A DNA stretch of 56,795 bases from Gemmatimonadota bacterium (GTDB lineage: Bacteria > Latescibacterota > UBA2968 > UBA8231). Under the pieces are notes generated by a model. It did not search any database. It had not been told where the DNA came from and saw nothing but the letters and a program-made list of their open reading frames with translations. The stretch is from positions 1 through 56,795 of the forward strand of contig PATE01000084.1 of NCBI GenBank assembly GCA_002712305.1, read 5' to 3'. This document shows positions 1,482 through 15,372 of the stretch, one piece after another (the stretch's first letter is position 1; each line of letters opens with the position of its first letter). The translations under genes and the position numbers were made by a program.

Positions 1482-2060
1482 GCCCGGAACTCAAGGCGAC
1501 GACGGTCATTGTCGAATTGCTGCAGGATCTCTGCCAGGTCCATACCGTCGTCTATGAGGTCAGGAGTCTCAGGCACTTCTCGGCGAGCACCTCTTCAGAG
1601 GTGATACGGCTCACGTCGATCGATGGCAACCCGAAGTTTTGGACGGTATCTCGATGACCGTCGGATCGGCGAGGAGCCAGATAGCGGAGACCGATTCGAG
1701 ATCAAGCGTCGCGACCAGTTCGGGTAGCAAAGCCGAACCCACCAGGATCAGTCCGCCTGTCGAAACATCCTTCGCCTGTCCGGTCACGATGGGAAGCACG
1801 AGAGGCCACACATTGTCCGTGTAGTGACGCAGCACATCGTCCATCAACTCCTCCACCGACAGAGACAGGTAGTGGCTGGCCACATGTTCGGGCACTTGGC
1901 CGCCCGGTTCCTGTGCCCACGGACGCCCCGGGTGCCGTGCAAGTTTGTCCGTCGACCTGTACTGCCATTCAAGTTGCGATGCCAGCGCCTGTGCAAGCGT
2001 CGACTTTCCCGCGTGGGATGTGCCGCCAATGAGATGAACTCTGAATCTCGTCTCATCCAC
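1478..2060 (-). pseudogene. P-loop kinase-like protein with two frameshifts
   Basis: The N-terminus carries a clean Walker A, GGTSHAGKST, at about residues 12-21, then STDKLARHPGRPW, typical of small nucleotide-dependent kinases of the 2-phosphoglycerate kinase/AAA-like group. The open frame stops at 1611. The conserved continuation (FGLPSIDVSRITSEEVLAEK, then VPETPDLIDDGMDLAEILQQ) resumes in two successive other frames, needing one extra base near 1646-1653 and another near 1576-1581. The corrected product is about 194 residues and ends in TGA overlapping the GTG start of the GNAT gene. The substrate is unknown. Confidence 0.6.
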
Positions 2061-2065
2061 AACTC

Positions 2066-3238
2066 CTAGTCGCTTCTCTCGTAGACACGACAGCGGGATC
2101 GGAAACCCCTTTGAGCGAAACTGCGCTCACCGAGAAGCCGCCAGCCGCGCTCGACAACACCTTCGAGAGCGTCGAGAGATCGATGGTCCTGGGTCAGCAC
2201 GACGAACTTTCCTCCACGCCGACAGATCCGATGGGCTTCGGCGAAGGTATCCCGGTAGAGGGAGATGTTTGGCTCGCGCGTCCCAATGCTCTGGCCCCAG
2301 GGCAGATCCGCGCACAACCGGTCAAAACTCGCCTCTGCAAAGGGCAGCGCCCTTGTGTCGGCCCTCAATAGCTTGATGCGATCACGGAGACCAGCGGCTG
2401 TCGAGTTGTGCTTCGATGCGTCCAGAGCCTGCGGAATGTTGTCGACCCCGACCATAATTTTGGCTCGTCCCCACTTGAGTCGTTCGATCAGGATCGACCC
2501 GCTGCCGCACATGAGATTGAGGAAACGATCACCCGGCGCCGGACGGGACAACTCCACCAGAGCTGCGGCAACGGTCCCGCTGAGACTTCCCCGATAATTC
2601 ACCTTCCGCCACGCACGGGTCCCGAGGGGTCGAGCGCCGACGCGGCTCAACACTTCCCATCCGGTCTCGCCGGGCCGCAAGGCCAACACGAGATCTCCCG
2701 TGTCGTTAGCAAAAGGCAGGGACAGTTTCTCGGCGATCTGTGAACCGAGTCGCTGCATGGTCGGCGAATCCGAACCCGCTGCGTCCAGGCGAAGGCCGGT
2801 GAATTTTTCAGCCGGAGTCACTTCCATCACGGTTTTCAGGTCGCTAACGATGGCGGCCAGATGTTCCGGCGACAGCAGGGTCCGAGGCCGGGCGACGCGG
2901 AAGTCTCTGCGCAGAGACAATACGTGGCACAGACGCAGGGACAACAAGGCTCGTGAACGACCACCGAAGACGAAGTGGCATTCGCCACCCTTCGAGTGCG
3001 GAACATGGGTGACGTGATCCTTGAAACGCCGATCGAGTTCGCCTTTGAGCAGGTCTTCGAGCCCAGGTAAGGCCGTGCCAACCCAGAGATTGGGCGTACC
3101 ACCAGAAGGGGCACTGCGTTTTGGGCGCCCCTTGTGTTGACCTGACTTCGTCGAGCGTCGCAAGGTCGGGCGCTTCTTCGAGGCTCGAGAGTTGGAGGGC
3201 GGGCCGGTTTGGCGCCGGCTGGGTAGTCGCTTCGCCAT
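2066..3238 (-). CDS. THUMP-type class I RNA methyltransferase (RlmL/Trm14-like)
   Basis: A SAM-dependent methyltransferase that probably modifies a guanosine base in rRNA or tRNA. A lysine/arginine-rich N-terminal extension of about 45 residues precedes a THUMP-like RNA-binding region (about 50-190) and a Rossmann methyltransferase domain. In that domain NLMCGSGSILIE (about 241-252) binds SAM, and DLPWG (about 308-312) corresponds to the (D/N)PP(Y/W) catalytic motif of N2-guanine methyltransferases. The ATG at 3238 is preferred over the upstream start at 3322, which would overlap the ASCH gene and add 28 unconserved residues. The protein is shorter than E. coli RlmL because it lacks the second methyltransferase half. 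The exact target base cannot be read from sequence. Confidence 0.82.
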   Translation of the reverse strand: MAKRLPSRRQTGPPSNSRASKKRPTLRRSTKSGQHKGRPKRSAPSGGTPNLWVGTALPGLEDLLKGELDRRFKDHVTHVPHSKGGECHFVFGGRSRALLSLRLCHVLSLRRDFRVARPRTLLSPEHLAAIVSDLKTVMEVTPAEKFTGLRLDAAGSDSPTMQRLGSQIAEKLSLPFANDTGDLVLALRPGETGWEVLSRVGARPLGTRAWRKVNYRGSLSGTVAAALVELSRPAPGDRFLNLMCGSGSILIERLKWGRAKIMVGVDNIPQALDASKHNSTAAGLRDRIKLLRADTRALPFAEASFDRLCADLPWGQSIGTREPNISLYRDTFAEAHRICRRGGKFVVLTQDHRSLDALEGVVERGWRLLGERSFAQRGFRSRCRVYERSD

Positions 3239-3278
3239 TGAGCTCAGTTGTCGGTTGGGGGCAGATCCAACGCTTTCG

Positions 3279-3842
3279 TCATGCCGGGCCCCTTTCGAGA
3301 TGTTCGAGCACACAGCGGCCACGGGGGGACAGCTCGTATCCCACTTTGAGGCTCTTGGTCAGACCGAACTCTTTCAGTCGACGTACCCGCGGCTTGAATC
3401 GATCGGTTGGCAATCCAAATTCGTCAGCAAGATCCGGAGCACGGCGACCGGGCCAGCGATGGATGAGTCGCAGAACATCGATGGCCCATTTCAGCCGACG
3501 GAGTCGTTGATCGAGCGCGACGAGTTCTTCAGGGGTCGGCTGCTGCTGGGCCAGCGCGGCACGAGGATCTTCACCGGACAGACACAGGGAGATCCGAAAT
3601 ACGGTTCCCTGTCGTCCGCTTAGTCCTTCGAGCAACTCAGAGCGCGACGCGTAGCCCGCGCGACGACTGTCGTCGTCGGTGATCTTCTGACGAGTTGTGG
3701 CCTCGATCGACTCGATGGCGAGCACACCGATCGCCGTGCGCAGCGTGCCTCCCTGCTTGACGGTCGGACGCTTCCAGCATCGGAAGGCCAGGTCTATGTC
3801 GCCCGAAGCGATGCCCTGCAACACGGCTTTCTTGATCAGCAT
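3279..3842 (-). CDS. ASCH-domain protein with C-terminal winged-helix-like region
   Basis: Residues 1-95 (MLIKKAVLQGIASGDIDLAF, then WKRPTVKQGGTL and ARRAGYASRSELL) match the compact ASCH fold, a PUA-related beta-barrel thought to bind RNA or modified nucleotides. Residues 105-187 are helix-rich and end in LVLxRGRCVLEHLE-like spacing typical of a winged helix, so the C-terminus may bind nucleic acid too. The gene sits 40 bases upstream of the THUMP methyltransferase on the same strand, which makes an RNA-related role plausible but unproven. The start ATG gives the full ASCH N-terminus. Confidence 0.75.
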   Translation of the reverse strand: MLIKKAVLQGIASGDIDLAFRCWKRPTVKQGGTLRTAIGVLAIESIEATTRQKITDDDSRRAGYASRSELLEGLSGRQGTVFRISLCLSGEDPRAALAQQQPTPEELVALDQRLRRLKWAIDVLRLIHRWPGRRAPDLADEFGLPTDRFKPRVRRLKEFGLTKSLKVGYELSPRGRCVLEHLERGPA

Positions 3843-3860
3843 GTGGATCTCATTTAGTGG

Positions 3861-4631
3861 CTACGCTTGGGGCTTGGTCCACGTGGGTGCCACCAGCGTC
3901 ATGCCGAAGTGCTTGGCCAGGATCGCGGTGTATCTGTCTTCTTCAACCGGTATTTCCACGGTCTTACGGTCTACGTGCTTTAAGGTGTTTCCGGCCAACG
4001 TGATTCGACCCGTCTCCGTCGCCCGAGTACAGACTCGTTTTCGCACAAATGCGGAATCCGGCGCATGCTGCTGCCACTGGCATCGATCGGCGAACCGGTC
4101 CCAATCCTGGGGTGCTGAATTCAGTTTCAACATCTTCGTCCACTTGCCAGGCTCCATCTGGCGGGAGATCTCGAAGAAGCCTTCGGCCTCTTCGATCTTG
4201 AATCGTGATCGACCGTCGGTCTGTTCGTCCCGGCGATCAAGATCTAGCGGTACCAGGGTGCTGTCGCCGAATCCGATGTCGACCCACCAACGTACGCCAT
4301 CGAGACGAACGAGAGCGCACTGATGATCGAAGGGAGCACCGGGGCCACCGATCACAACACGACCCTCCAGGCGATCGATATCGTATCCCAGAGCCTTGAG
4401 GCACTGGTAGAAACACTCGTTGAGTTCGTAGCAGAAACCGCCGCGATCACCCACAACGATCTTGAGGTAGATGGCCGTGTGATCGAGTAGAATCGGTCGA
4501 CCCAGATGAATGTCCAGATTCTCGAAGGGAAACGACAGAAGTGCCTGACGCTGCAGCCGTTGTAGCGTCTCCAGGGTGGGCTCTGCGTCAGTCACACCGA
4601 GGCGAGCCAACAGGGCAAGCCAGTCGATCAT
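3861..4631 (-). CDS. Arylamine N-acetyltransferase
   Basis: A cytoplasmic NAT-family enzyme that transfers acetyl from acetyl-CoA to arylamines or hydrazines by a ping-pong mechanism. All three catalytic residues are visible: Cys67 in RGGFCYELN, His103 in PFDHQC, and Asp118 in WWVDIGFGD. The length of 256 residues is slightly below the usual 270-280. The conserved FPFENLDIHLGR segment lies at about 34-45. Its ATG overlaps the last 4 bases of the upstream membrane-protein gene. The physiological substrate is not deducible; bacterial NATs range from xenobiotic acetylation to polyketide release. Confidence 0.93.
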   Translation of the reverse strand: MIDWLALLARLGVTDAEPTLETLQRLQRQALLSFPFENLDIHLGRPILLDHTAIYLKIVVGDRGGFCYELNECFYQCLKALGYDIDRLEGRVVIGGPGAPFDHQCALVRLDGVRWWVDIGFGDSTLVPLDLDRRDEQTDGRSRFKIEEAEGFFEISRQMEPGKWTKMLKLNSAPQDWDRFADRCQWQQHAPDSAFVRKRVCTRATETGRITLAGNTLKHVDRKTVEIPVEEDRYTAILAKHFGMTLVAPTWTKPQA

Positions 4632-5386
4632 CGACGCAGCAACCAGCGGATGCGTCGAAATGACAGGACGTGGTGGAGGCCCACCGTGGCCGCGTACCCC
4701 ACAGCCAGATCACCGCGCCCCGTGTCCACCATCGCCCACGTGGCAAAGCCGAAGACACCCAGTTCCACGCCGAGTCTCGCCCAGCCGGGAACCGTGACAG
4801 CCCCCTTGCCTCCTCGACTGGGGTCATTGGGAACGGTGAAGGTCCCCCAGGCACCGGCAGCCGCCGCGGGGACGCCAACCAGTAGACCGTATCGGGCGGC
4901 ACCGTCGGCTTGATCCAACCCCCAGACACCGAGCGAAGTCAGGGCCGCCAATTCCAGACCTAATCTCAGTGCAAGATTGGCGGGGTGCATGCGAGGTGGT
5001 AACCCAGAGACCACATTCGCCACATAGAGTTGAATCTGAGAGACCAGTTGATCTGCCATGGTCGAAGCGTCGGCCACATCAAAGCTCAATTCGTGGCTCG
5101 CTCCACCGGCTGCGGCCGCGTCGCTTGCCTCCAGCTTCAACCGCGCCGTCGACGCATCGAACTCTAACTCGCCCTGCTCGAAGCACCGTTGTTCGGTGCC
5201 GCCCTCCGAGCCCATGGACTTGAACCTCAGTCTCTCGAGCCGGTCGGCGCCGTAGTGATAGAGGAGCCAGTGGTAGACCGTTCCAGGTGATGTTCCTTCC
5301 GGCAGCCCATTGATGCGGACCTCCGCCAGCGTGTGCGTAGGGCTGGCGAAGTGATAGAGGAAGCTGAGATCGAGAGAATCAGGCAT
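4628..5386 (-). CDS. DUF2568 (YrdB-like) membrane protein with an unrecognised soluble N-terminal domain
   Basis: The last ~115 residues match the small DUF2568/YrdB family: NLALRLGLELAALTSLGVWG, then GVPAAAAGAWGTFTVPNDPS and a final LHHVLSFRRIRWLL. They form about four hydrophobic helices. Residues 1-135 are soluble, with a beta-rich pattern and several YH/Y-aromatic pairs (YHWLLYHYGADRLERL), and are not part of typical stand-alone YrdB proteins, which are about 120 residues long. I do not recognise this domain. The gene is co-directional and overlaps the NAT gene by 4 bases. The fusion may be natural or another of the junctions described for this window. Confidence 0.6.
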   Translation of the reverse strand: MPDSLDLSFLYHFASPTHTLAEVRINGLPEGTSPGTVYHWLLYHYGADRLERLRFKSMGSEGGTEQRCFEQGELEFDASTARLKLEASDAAAAGGASHELSFDVADASTMADQLVSQIQLYVANVVSGLPPRMHPANLALRLGLELAALTSLGVWGLDQADGAARYGLLVGVPAAAAGAWGTFTVPNDPSRGGKGAVTVPGWARLGVELGVFGFATWAMVDTGRGDLAVGYAATVGLHHVLSFRRIRWLLRR

Positions 5387-11663: not shown

Positions 11664-12383
11664 ATGATGCGATTCAGAAACGATGAGTTCATCCGCACCC
11701 TCGACCCGGACATCTTCTCTCACGGCCGGCTCCTGCGACGTTTTCCCGGATCGGATGCGTGTCGATTCTCAGCCAAGGTCGCGCTGAATCTATTGGAAAG
11801 AGTCGACGACCGCCCGCGGGGGTCACGACCCAGAATTCTATGGGACCCCTTCTGTGGCGCGGGCATGATTCCTTGTGTGGCCCTGGCTGCCTTCCCTGGA
11901 AAGTTCGACGTCGTCGTCGCCTCAGACATCAACGGCGAGGCCGTCGCCTGTGCGCTCGGAAATCTGAACATCGTCTGTGATTCCGCAGCATTCGCTGCCC
12001 GGCGCGCCCAGATCCACAAAAGTCGGGGAATGAATCAGGGCATGGACCGACGGGGAGCGATCATCGAAGCCTACATGGCCGAGCTTGAGCCGATCCTGAT
12101 GACCAACCCGGCGACGGTCACGATCGGCGCCCTCAGGGGCGACGCTTTTCGTCTTCCTGCAGTCTCTGGCGACGTACATTTCGTGGCCGACCTTCCCCAT
12201 GAAAACCAGTCCCAGTTGCTCGGGGGCCCACTGTCTGAACTGCTGCCGTCACTGCGCAGCGCTTTCCCGGACGCCACGGCCACGTTTGTGACGACGAGAG
12301 ATGCCGTCGAGCAACTATGTCACTCAACCCCAGGCGTTCAACTCCGGGATCTTGCCCATGGACGGGTTGTGGTTCGCCTGTGA
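11664..12383 (+). CDS. AviRa-like rRNA methyltransferase
   Basis: A lone plus-strand gene between two minus-strand blocks. The SAM-binding motif reads LWDPFCGAGMIPCVALAAF at about 60-78, followed by VVASDINGEAVACALGNLNI (acidic loop), a layout typical of AviRa, the 23S rRNA G2535 methyltransferase. The catalytic motif is VADLPHENQSQLLG (about 172-185), in the place of DLPYGE in AviRa. The substitution of His for Tyr/Gly there means target and activity are uncertain. It could also be a general (D/N)PP(Y/W)-type RNA methyltransferase. ATG codons at 11664 and 11667 are both possible starts. Confidence 0.62.
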   Translation: MMRFRNDEFIRTLDPDIFSHGRLLRRFPGSDACRFSAKVALNLLERVDDRPRGSRPRILWDPFCGAGMIPCVALAAFPGKFDVVVASDINGEAVACALGNLNIVCDSAAFAARRAQIHKSRGMNQGMDRRGAIIEAYMAELEPILMTNPATVTIGALRGDAFRLPAVSGDVHFVADLPHENQSQLLGGPLSELLPSLRSAFPDATATFVTTRDAVEQLCHSTPGVQLRDLAHGRVVVRL

Positions 12384-12431: not shown

Positions 12432-14009
12432 CTAGTCATCTGCAGACCCGATCGCGCGCCGAGCCCGATCCGTCATTTGTTCTGGTGACCATGCGGGATC
12501 GTGCACCAGTTGGATCTCGACCCGTCCAACGCCACCCAGACGAGCCTCGAACTGCTCCCTGATTCGATCCGAGAACCAATCGAACCAGGTTTCGCGTCCT
12601 GCGTAGGGCATGACCAGGTCGATCTGGACATCGTTGCCGTCGACGTGGACACGGCTGACGATGCCGATATCGATGAAACTGAGTTGCCGCTGCCCCCACG
12701 GAGACCCCTCCAGGTAGAGTTCGAACTCATTGGTGCCTCGCAGAGCGTCGAGGACGCTTTCGGTGGTGACCGCCTGAGGGATCTGTGTGAGTTCCACCTG
12801 TGTGAGCGGATTCAGCAGTCGTTGCTGACGCTCGACCAGTTCGGCGAAACCGCCGTGGTCGACATGTTCATCAAAGTGGTAGGCCACGTAGGCGTTCTTC
12901 TCATACACATGGTCGCCCGCCTGCATGTTCGCGTGATGCACGGGCGATCGAACCCACACACCGGTACGAGAAAATCCTGACCCATCGGGCTCCGTGAAGT
13001 TCGGGTTCGTGTTCTCAAACTCCAGATGGACACTGCCGAATCCTTCGCCCGTCTCGGGATTGAAGTATGACATCCAACCCGGGTCTGCCTTGTCCCAGCC
13101 CACGGCGCCGATTCCGATCTCCCCATCCGGCGCCATCCAGGCTCGTTCGGGCAGCTGCTCACCGATCACGAATTCGTCGTTGCGACAGTCGCGGAATCGC
13201 ACATCCTCGAACACATCGAGTTTGGATTCCATGATGACATAGGGTTGGCCTGCCCAGAAGGAGTACGTCACCGTCGCCATCACCTTATGGGGGCGGCCCA
13301 CCGTGGGCCCGAGTGACAGGATCGGATGCCCTCGACGCCGAAGACGCAGACACACGGGCCCGCGAATCACGTCATACTCGAACATCTGTGGACCATCCCA
13401 ACTGGTGATCCGATAACGACCCACGCGCTCCTCGCTCCAATCTGGTCCCCAGTGAATCGTGCCCTCCACACCATGGCCACCGCCACTGTCGAGCGTTGCC
13501 TCCCACCCCTTCGGAAAGTGGCACTTCCAGTTGCCGCTCAGGTGCGAAAGGGTCGCTCGGTAGTGGGCATTCTCGACTTCCAGCGGATAGTCCTCATCGC
13601 TGAAAGAGAGATCCGTGTCGTGGATAGGCGCGGGTGCATCGGGGTTGCCATAGAACACGACATAGGTGCGGGTCGAATCCCTCGGCACGCTGGCCAGAAA
13701 GAACAGACGACAGCGCAGAGTCGAATCCTCCTGGGCGACTAGATGGACCTGACTGGGAATTCCTTCGAGCCGTCCGCCCCCGCCGCTGGTGGCAGCTACG
13801 CGGACCTCGCGCTCCAGATCAGTGATGTGTCGGCCGTGGAAATCGACATCCACCTCGATCGGTTCCAGATGCCGATCAAGCTCGGTGGTATTGGACAGGA
13901 TGAGACGTTTGGCGAATTGCCAACCGGCCGGAGATTGCCACTCGGAAGGCAGATTGGCGGCGTGATCCCAGTCTTGAACTGGGATGTAGATCGAAGCGTC
14001 ACCGTGCAT
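12432..14009 (-). CDS. Large beta-rich protein fused to a divergent MIP18/DUF59 domain
   Basis: The ATG at 14009 is fixed by AAGGAG nine bases upstream, giving 526 residues; the longer frame to 14234 is ignored. Residues 1-~400 are beta-rich and unrecognised (VVFYGNPDAPAP, EVENAHYRATLSHLSGNWKC, FWAGQPYVIMESKLDVFEDV), resembling non-catalytic carbohydrate-active or DUF2341-like sandwiches. Residues ~415-524 match MIP18/DUF59 iron-sulfur assembly factors: VTTESVLDALRGTNEF, then GNDVQIDLVMPYAGRETWF and VEIQLVHDPAWSPEQMTD. The conserved Cys of the PGCP loop is absent (YAGRE), so iron-sulfur binding is unlikely. The gene overlaps the upstream TolB-like gene by 11 bases. Confidence 0.7.
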   Translation of the reverse strand: MHGDASIYIPVQDWDHAANLPSEWQSPAGWQFAKRLILSNTTELDRHLEPIEVDVDFHGRHITDLEREVRVAATSGGGGRLEGIPSQVHLVAQEDSTLRCRLFFLASVPRDSTRTYVVFYGNPDAPAPIHDTDLSFSDEDYPLEVENAHYRATLSHLSGNWKCHFPKGWEATLDSGGGHGVEGTIHWGPDWSEERVGRYRITSWDGPQMFEYDVIRGPVCLRLRRRGHPILSLGPTVGRPHKVMATVTYSFWAGQPYVIMESKLDVFEDVRFRDCRNDEFVIGEQLPERAWMAPDGEIGIGAVGWDKADPGWMSYFNPETGEGFGSVHLEFENTNPNFTEPDGSGFSRTGVWVRSPVHHANMQAGDHVYEKNAYVAYHFDEHVDHGGFAELVERQQRLLNPLTQVELTQIPQAVTTESVLDALRGTNEFELYLEGSPWGQRQLSFIDIGIVSRVHVDGNDVQIDLVMPYAGRETWFDWFSDRIREQFEARLGGVGRVEIQLVHDPAWSPEQMTDRARRAIGSADD

Positions 14010-14736
14010 GAATAGAAACTCCTTGTTGTGCGCGATGCGGGTTGGCGCACAGTGGTCTGTTACGAGGACAGTTCCGGCCCCCAGTGGCAGCGAATTCATC
14101 GGCGTGCTCGCCGGATAGATTGACCAAACCCGATCCGTCTGCGTTGATACGATGCAGTTGGAGCGTGTCACCAACGTGGGCCGTGAACACAAGCTGTGAT
14201 GCGTCCGGAGAGAACGACGCCTGCCAGGAGACAAACCCCTCCGGTGTCACCCTGCGCGCCTGGGTGCCATCTGCGCGCATGATATAGATCGCAGTCTCTC
14301 CGTCGCGCTGCGAAGTGCACGGAAGCCACTGACCATCGGGCGAGAACGCAGAATCATCGCCACCTGCGTCCGAGGCCTCGAGCGGTCGCTGATCCGATCC
14401 ATCACGCCCCATGGCGTGAATATCGGCCTGACCCGTACGATCGCTCGCAAAGAGAATCGTCTGCCCATCCCACGAAAAGTGAGGGCGCAGGTCGGGCAGA
14501 TCGTTTTCGGTGACCCGACTCAACGAATTGCCCTCGGGATCCATGAGATAGATCTCTCCCTTGCCGTGGCGGCGCGAACAGAAGGCGATCATCCCATCCG
14601 GTGACCAGGCTGGATGGTCTTCCTCCCAGTCGGGCGTCTGCGTGAGGTTGCGTCGATCCGAGCCATCGGGTCGCATCGTCCAGATATCCATCTCGCCCGC
14701 CGTGGTGCTAACGAAGACGATCCTCGATGAAGTCAT
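13999..14736 (-). CDS. TolB-like beta-propeller (WD40/PD40 repeat) protein, cytoplasmic
   Basis: About 245 residues with at least five PD40 repeats: MRPDGSDRRNLTQTPDWEED, AWSPDGMIAFCSRR, DIHAMGRDGSDQRPLEAS and SFSPDASQLVFTA. These build a TolB-like propeller. The ATG at 14736 is chosen because AGGAG lies six bases upstream, and it follows the LysE gene stop (14751) by 14 bases. No signal peptide is seen, so unlike TolB it probably stays in the cytoplasm. The reading frame continues past the last blade into a Gly/Arg/Pro-rich tail with no propeller pattern, which may be a frameshift into a missing blade. Function unknown; protein-protein interaction is likely. Confidence 0.7.
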   Translation of the reverse strand: MTSSRIVFVSTTAGEMDIWTMRPDGSDRRNLTQTPDWEEDHPAWSPDGMIAFCSRRHGKGEIYLMDPEGNSLSRVTENDLPDLRPHFSWDGQTILFASDRTGQADIHAMGRDGSDQRPLEASDAGGDDSAFSPDGQWLPCTSQRDGETAIYIMRADGTQARRVTPEGFVSWQASFSPDASQLVFTAHVGDTLQLHRINADGSGLVNLSGEHADEFAATGGRNCPRNRPLCANPHRAQQGVSIHAR

Positions 14737-14750
14737 CCTCTGCTCCTGGT

Positions 14751-15372
14751 TCATCTGCGGGAGAGCGCCGTGCTCAAACCCAATCGGATATAGACGACGC
14801 CACTGGCTACTTGCGGCAGGCGCCCCGCGGTCAGTCGTCCTGTGAACAGTCGCCTCAGACGACTCGCCAGAAGGACATAAACACTGTCCGTGACCAGCGC
14901 CAAACCCACGTAGAGCAGGCCGAGGAACATCACCTAGCTCGGACCGGGCCCTGGCTCGGATCGACGAACTGAGGCAGGAAGGCAAGGGACCGCGATCTTT
15001 GGATTGAGCACGCTCACAACCACGCCGTCGATAAAGAGTCGACGAAGCGAACGAGGCAATGGTGCGCCTACATCAGTGGTCTCGTCTCGAGCCAGAATGG
15101 CGCGAACACCCAGATAGATGAGATAACCGGCACCGAAGGTCTTGACGAATCCGAATGCCGTCGCCGACGTGAGCAGAATCGCCGAGAGTCCTGCCGTCGC
15201 GGCGCTGACGTGCACGAGGGCGCCCACCGACAGGCCGACGACGGACACAAGGCCGGCACGCTGCCCCTGTCCGAGACTGCGAGCGACCATGTAGCAGGAC
15301 ACTGGGTCCTGGAATCAGCAAGACCACGAGGGCCGCCGCCGCGAATCCCAACAGAAGCGTATCACCGGGCAT
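14751..15372 (-). pseudogene. LysE/RhtB-family amino-acid exporter with at least two frameshifts
   Basis: Pieces of a LysE-type exporter read in three frames. They run in order: MPGDTLLLGFAAAALVVLLI-PGPS (N-terminal helix), then YMVARSLGQGQRAGLVSVVG and FGAGYLIYLGVRAIL with VVSVLNPKIA, then LAFLPQFVDPSQG, then MFLGLLYVGLALVTDSVYVL to the stop at 14751. All family landmarks (PGPxxL, GAxYLxYLG, NPK, FLPQFV) are present, so the gene was whole until recently. An extra C sits near 15294 and another in the CCC run near 14990. A base is missing near 14940. The corrected protein would be about 205 residues and export amino acids or derivatives. It overlaps the amidase gene by 11 bases. Confidence 0.72.

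Follow-up and report, generated by a model that had tools for sequence, protein, structure and literature searches.

A protein of 525 amino acids from a member of the Latescibacterota joins a large beta-rich part to a C-terminal domain of the DUF59/MIP18 fold, in which the cysteine characteristic of this fold is replaced by an arginine that is invariant in C-terminal copies throughout a multi-phylum protein family. The gene lies in a stretch of 56,795 nucleotides (contig PATE01000084.1 of assembly GCA_002712305.1; hereafter the window). On balance, we favour the view that the family comprises carbohydrate-active proteins, probably enzymes, into which a fold of iron-sulfur (Fe-S) assembly helpers was recruited and its pocket rebuilt around the arginine. 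As profile searches find only the DUF59 domain, family proteins risk being labelled as Fe-S assembly factors, a label that is very likely wrong; we found no function assigned to the multi-phylum family. The family lets one ask which roles the DUF59 fold can fill once its cysteine is gone, and this question is directly testable owing to a single fusion event, natural controls lacking DUF59, a diagnostic Cys-to-Arg residue and the presence of the fusion in isolates.

Domain organisation of the fusion protein

The fusion gene is a single open reading frame on the minus strand (12432–14009, stop codon at 12432–12434). Its ATG start codon, at 14009, is preceded at a distance of 9 nt by an AAGGAG ribosome-binding site (14019–14024, minus strand). 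Full-length homologues in sister genomes share 64–71% identity with the window protein. An open reading frame for a PD40/TolB-like beta-propeller (13999–14985), on the strand of the fusion gene, runs 11 nt into the start of that gene, an arrangement that is suggestive of translational coupling as judged from the sequence and that was not seen in the relatives inspected. A gene for an AviRa-like rRNA methyltransferase (PF11599, E 3.8e-9; 11664–12383) is convergent with the fusion gene. The AviRa-like family is best known for avilamycin resistance.

A beta-rich part of about 400 residues, described in the first-pass annotation from the sequence, is borne out by an AlphaFold2 model built from 72 sequences (pLDDT 88, pTM 0.88), and is predicted to consist of an Ig-like domain followed by a galactose-mutarotase-type super-sandwich. 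The Ig-like beta-sandwich is placed at approximately residues 28–122 (13644–13928, minus strand) by the model, fold matches and conservation, its conserved residues being R67, E68, R70, Q87 and N122. The super-sandwich is placed at approximately residues 133–402 (12804–13613, minus strand) by the model and fold matches, with galactose mutarotase matches beginning at model residue 130–142. In structural comparisons, residues 1–401 matched the GH174 endo-1,3-fucanase 8jd7 (Z 19.6, 265 aligned residues, 3.5 Å), the PL26 exo-rhamnogalacturonan lyase 5xqj (Z 18.3, 341 aligned residues), the beta half of GH38 enzymes (Z 17–19) and galactose mutarotases (Z ~16), and also a PBCV-1 capsid protein (Z 18.1). 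These fold relatives share 5–12% identity with the window protein, and sequence and profile searches of the beta part against Pfam, NCBIfam and the PDB gave no match. Across 49 aligned rows, which include relatives lacking DUF59, a near-invariant R-N-D-E motif of the super-sandwich (residues 276–279; 13173–13184, minus strand) stands out as a candidate active-site element carrying an acidic pair (R276 in 49/49, D278 in 46/49 and E279 in 47/49). More broadly, H179, R225, Y249, R276, D278, E279 and R354 are common to almost every row, whether DUF59 is present or not; this set suits sugar chemistry and may be catalytic.

The C-terminal domain spans residues 412–521 (12447–12776, minus strand). 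The DUF59 profile PF01883 scored 25.7 bits against the C-terminal part alone (cut-off 23.5, E 1.4e-5), 21.3 bits and thus under the cut-off when the whole protein was scanned (residues 442–498), and 24.2 bits, over the cut-off, in a genome-wide search; it was found in 67 of the 72 family members (E ≤ 0.01). NCBIfam models associated with PaaD and SUF also matched (E ~1e-6), far under their curated cut-offs (TIGR02159 and NF041868, 29.3 vs 108 bits and 29.6 vs 180 bits), which places the window protein outside PaaD. By phmmer the C-terminal part matched TM0487 (1uwd) at E 3.7e-5, and a profile of the 72 relatives reached the same structure at E 3e-15. When the C-terminal 121 residues were modelled alone (pLDDT 79) and used in a fold search, DUF59 structures ranked first, led by 3lno of Bacillus anthracis (Foldseek E 1.4e-6; VIA Z 12.9 over 99 residues, 2.1 Å) and including 1uwd (Z 10.2), with unrelated folds such as metal-transporter domains reaching only Z 6–7. 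Sequence profiles and fold search therefore agree on the MIP18/DUF59 domain that had been proposed for the C-terminus, and the first-pass claim withstood the fold search that it had itself named as a possible refutation.

An invariant arginine in place of the pocket cysteine

SufT proteins have a pocket of conserved Asp, Glu, Thr and Cys, in which the Cys is required for contacts with SufS and SufU, and in Mtb SufT the conserved Cys serves protein-protein contacts, not iron binding (PMC9045647). A survey of 761 SufT homologues found the Cys in every one of them (PMC4982691). SufT is typified by this single, strictly conserved reactive Cys within T-x-x-x-C-P and by frequent siting in or near the suf operon. 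The window family lacks this Cys, and no suf genes were recognised beside the fusion in the loci inspected. As read in the first-pass annotation, the cysteine is missing and YAGRE is present: the invariant residues and the profile alignment place an M-P-Y-A-G-R-E loop (residues 467–473; 12591–12611, minus strand) where T-x-x-x-C-P is expected, and in the alignment to TM0487, TTHB138, YitW and Rv1466 the Cys column holds Arg472.

Residues M467, P468, G471 and R472 are invariant in all 72 sequences, so that the canonical Thr has become Pro, and the Cys Arg, in each of the 72. At the canonical Asp position stands Asp or Glu, and the place of the Glu of D-P-E is mostly taken by Gln or Met, with a conserved Tyr after it; the pocket has thus changed from D-P-E...T...C to [D/E]-x-[Q/M/E]-[L/F]-Y...P-x-x-G-R. 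Among all family genes of the surveyed loci in which the C-terminal region is present, excluding two copies with DUF59 at the N-terminus, Arg occupies the Cys position in 87 of 87 scored copies. Their loops read PHRGRP (70 + 2), PHKGRP (6), PYAGRE (6), PYAGRA (1), PHPGRP (1) and PHRGRS (1), and the two N-terminal DUF59 copies carry NRGR (L037) and NRGH (L018). An apparent PSAGEV loop in two proteins proved to be a pattern artefact in the linker; both carry PHRGRP. The description of the domain as a divergent copy thus holds for the missing cysteine and fails if taken to mean a one-off, as the family occurs in at least six phyla with the Arg invariant. These alignments indicate that the cysteine was swapped for a specific invariant arginine, which is more than simple loss.

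The domain shows no decay: sequence identity to relatives keeps pace with that of the beta part, both for close relatives (0.63 for DUF59 vs 0.68 for the beta part) and for distant ones (0.30 vs 0.32), and four of its eight invariant residues fall within the six-residue loop that formerly held the Cys (post hoc hypergeometric test, p 2e-4). A lineage-wide loss of the cysteine is ruled out, since both this genome and the phylum also contain DUF59 proteins with the Cys. The window's genome encodes a canonical SufT (TSPACP) beside genes recognised by sequence as sufU, sufS and an Rrf2-type regulator, and in the same phylum DUF59 proteins that stand alone carry TAPGCP.

Distribution and evolution of the family

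Among 60 genomes near that of the window, most members of its GTDB family contain relatives, and many of these are full length. The family alignment, used to scan species genomes, then yielded 79 loci from Latescibacterota (in part deposited under Gemmatimonadota), Poribacteria, Planctomycetota, Verrucomicrobiota, Acidobacteriota, Chloroflexota and Bacteroidota; Daejeonella and Arenibacter isolates are among the sources. The fusion lies in one open frame, with the junction free of stops, at 78 of the 79 loci, the exception (L119) being interrupted by stops. One to six full-length copies were present in each of five genomes counted. Distant members have an extra N-terminal helical segment (RTDSFEEK...), which is also found in a second, distant fusion copy in the window's own genome (G000:C60:4078-5727, L031; 29% identity, PHRGRP loop). 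A simple pattern rule assigns a twin-arginine signal to 28 of the 82 long genes of the family, a Sec-like stretch to two and neither to 52. The twin-arginine (Tat) signal, KRRKFLG followed by a hydrophobic stretch, occurs in Bacteroidota and some Verrucomicrobiota; the window protein has no signal peptide, and cellular location therefore differs between family members.

In a tree of the beta module, all DUF59-bearing rows fall on one side of a branch with 99% support, among them the two proteins with DUF59 at the N-terminus (L018 and L037). The other side holds the relatives lacking DUF59, namely the family f6 copies together with two rows on long branches. By this sequence-based tree, one fusion and one later rearrangement would explain the distribution of DUF59. 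Gain of DUF59 is likely the direction, rather than loss; it is graded no higher because the tree was rooted by midpoint and the two long rows (L023 and L045) make the side of the root unsure. These two rows (L023, 1039–2799, and L045, 1800–3569, G003) are DUF59-less relatives from the window's own family with a different N-terminal domain of ~130 residues. L037 (G009:C676; ORF 1997–4816, minus strand, 939 residues) combines a Gfo/Idh/MocA-like oxidoreductase, an N-terminal DUF59 domain and the beta module; this may reflect a triple fusion or a gene boundary that was overlooked.

Genomic neighbourhood

The genes that accompany the fusion differ between phyla. A SusC-like and SusD-like (PF12741) pair lies upstream at eight Bacteroidota loci, the SusC-like genes being assigned by appearance and position rather than by profile scan, and these Bacteroidota relatives thereby sit in polysaccharide-utilisation loci; no such pair was seen near the window gene. 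In Daejeonella the order runs from sigma-factor/FecR-like, SusC-like and SusD genes to two to five tandem family copies with Tat signals, and on to MFS, SDR dehydrogenase and creatininase-family genes. Five tandem Tat-signal copies at one Daejeonella locus (L067, 3258–13725) possibly represent a specificity series. The creatininase, SDR and M19 genes found nearby do not encode typical carbohydrate-active enzymes (CAZymes).

Sulfatases are frequent near the fusion in Latescibacterota and Chloroflexota, and the window itself contains genes for two GH29-type fucosidases (8185 and 41175), an arabinofuranosidase and a sulfatase. Degradation of algal polymers, sulfated fucans among them, has been described as a likely activity of Latescibacteria (PMC4454575). 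An endo-fucanase as top fold match fits this picture and is not evidence of the substrate, since many fold relatives score almost alike and glycan genes are common; as sugar genes abound in these genomes, we treat the neighbourhood as weak context. A conserved gene of ~456 residues (MKLWMDVMRDLE...GGVDGVVFGPL), without a match in Pfam or the PDB, is found no more than two genes away from the fusion in 13 loci from Latescibacterota and Chloroflexota (for example L054, 11579–12946, and L122, 11616–13505, plus 11 further loci).

Proposed function and alternative explanations

In the explanation that we favour, an ancestral DUF59 domain would have been fused once to an older beta module, after which its pocket was remodelled. 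We infer that family members cleave or isomerise an oligosaccharide, with a putative catalytic site in the super-sandwich groove (H179, R225, Y249, R276, D278/E279 and R354). The DUF59 part would no longer serve Fe-S assembly through a reactive cysteine and may instead form a rigid accessory or subsite module on the substrate side, where the invariant Arg would contact an acidic substrate group such as sulfate or carboxylate, or hold DUF59 against the beta module. As the beta part has no sequence-level match, it is fold and gene neighbourhood that carry the enzyme reading; the protein is placed in no named CAZyme family, and the case for a glycan enzyme draws on its fold, conserved residues and gene context. 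A more specific proposal, in which these are glycan-cleaving or sugar-isomerising enzymes whose active site is completed by DUF59 through a substrate-contacting Arg, is a tentative one; if true, it would be a first recruitment of an Fe-S helper fold into carbohydrate chemistry. The first-pass suggestion of a repurposed fold stands as far as a true DUF59 domain is fused to a beta-rich protein and conserved without its cysteine; on that ground repurposing is probable, and ligand or partner binding by the DUF59 part, given there as an example, fits the evidence.

The main rival to carbohydrate-active enzymes is a non-catalytic glycan-binding, ligand-binding or structural protein in which DUF59 acts as a dimerisation or partner-docking module, an Arg salt bridge replacing the Cys-dependent interaction of SufT. 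The super-sandwich also serves non-catalytic domains, the same folds are found in binding domains, and a PBCV-1 capsid protein is among the matches. Moreover, Mtb SufT is reported to homodimerise, which together with the involvement of the Cys in protein-protein contacts (PMC9045647) makes the fold a known docking module. We nevertheless regard this rival as rather doubtful, because the deeply conserved His/Tyr/Arg/Asp/Glu set exceeds the usual needs of a binding scaffold, and tandem paralogues in uptake loci suit enzymes of differing specificity.

Two further explanations concern the DUF59 domain itself. That the protein is still an assembly or delivery factor for Fe-S or metal cofactors, with the beta part as a client-recognition or export module, would agree with DUF59 membership by sequence and fold, and export by the Tat route in Bacteroidota would be in keeping with a folded protein that bears a cofactor. 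It is very improbable given that the canonical pocket Cys and Thr are replaced in every copy, that the genome has its own SufT in a suf operon and that suf genes went unrecognised beside the fusion in the loci inspected. It is also quite improbable that DUF59 is a passive relic or pseudo-domain on an otherwise active enzyme: DUF59-less relatives in the same phylum do retain the beta-part motifs, but DUF59 is as conserved as the beta part over several phyla, bears a new invariant motif and was retained after its shift to the N-terminus (L018, L037). Finally, the window comes from a fragmented draft genome of 146 contigs, in which an assembly or gene-calling error could join two adjacent genes by chance. 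The same stop-free junction in 78 of 79 independent loci, Daejeonella and Arenibacter isolates included, refutes such an artefact and leaves its probability negligible.

Comparison with known systems

MIP18-type factors had been taken to be normally stand-alone, an expectation contradicted by a survey in which 198 of 761 SufT homologues have extra modules (PMC4982691). The partners in SufT fusions S2–S9 are SufU-like, Rieske ferredoxin, CysE, PaaJ/acetyl-CoA acetyltransferase, P-loop NTPase, DUF1858 and PqqD modules, and the S2 fusion has an N-terminal part without known homology (PMC4982691). These fusions resemble the window family in that DUF59 is attached to other domains and stably retained; they differ in listing no beta-sandwich partner of this type and in keeping the Cys throughout S2–S9. 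The first-pass remark that no such fusion had been described therefore does not apply to DUF59 fusions as such, and stands for fusion to a beta-sandwich of this kind, of which we found none. Among open-licence papers, no link of DUF59 to CAZymes, SusD or Tat export was found, and plasmid records gave just DUF59- or PaaD-sized matches and no annotated fusion. Neither the beta-sandwich–DUF59 fusion nor the invariant Cys-to-Arg change was found in the searchable literature.

Among carbohydrate-active enzymes, GH174 (8jd7, 9k1g) shares the overall fold of residues 1–401, but has 11% identity to the window protein, no sequence-level match and no DUF59; the key residues of the GH174 enzyme Fun174A are D119, E120 and E218 (PMC11943901). 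PL26 (5xqj) shares the Ig-like and super-sandwich folds, again at 11% identity, and runs to 900 residues with additional domains. The beta half of GH38 alpha-mannosidases and the galactose mutarotases share the super-sandwich, with no sequence similarity found. Catalysis in GH38 sits in a domain other than the beta half. The window protein lacks the full domain set and sequence of PL26 or GH38, the fold match being to the beta half only, and its 525 residues leave no room for the other domains.

The likeness to DUF59/MIP18 proteins (PF01883; SufT, TM0487, YitW, PaaD and CIAO2) extends to both fold and sequence profile, and the window family mostly keeps the D of the D-P-E motif, as well as P-x-W of the C-terminal W-x-P-x-W. 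It differs from them in that the domain is fused to ~400–530 residues, lies outside the suf operon and is exported in some phyla.
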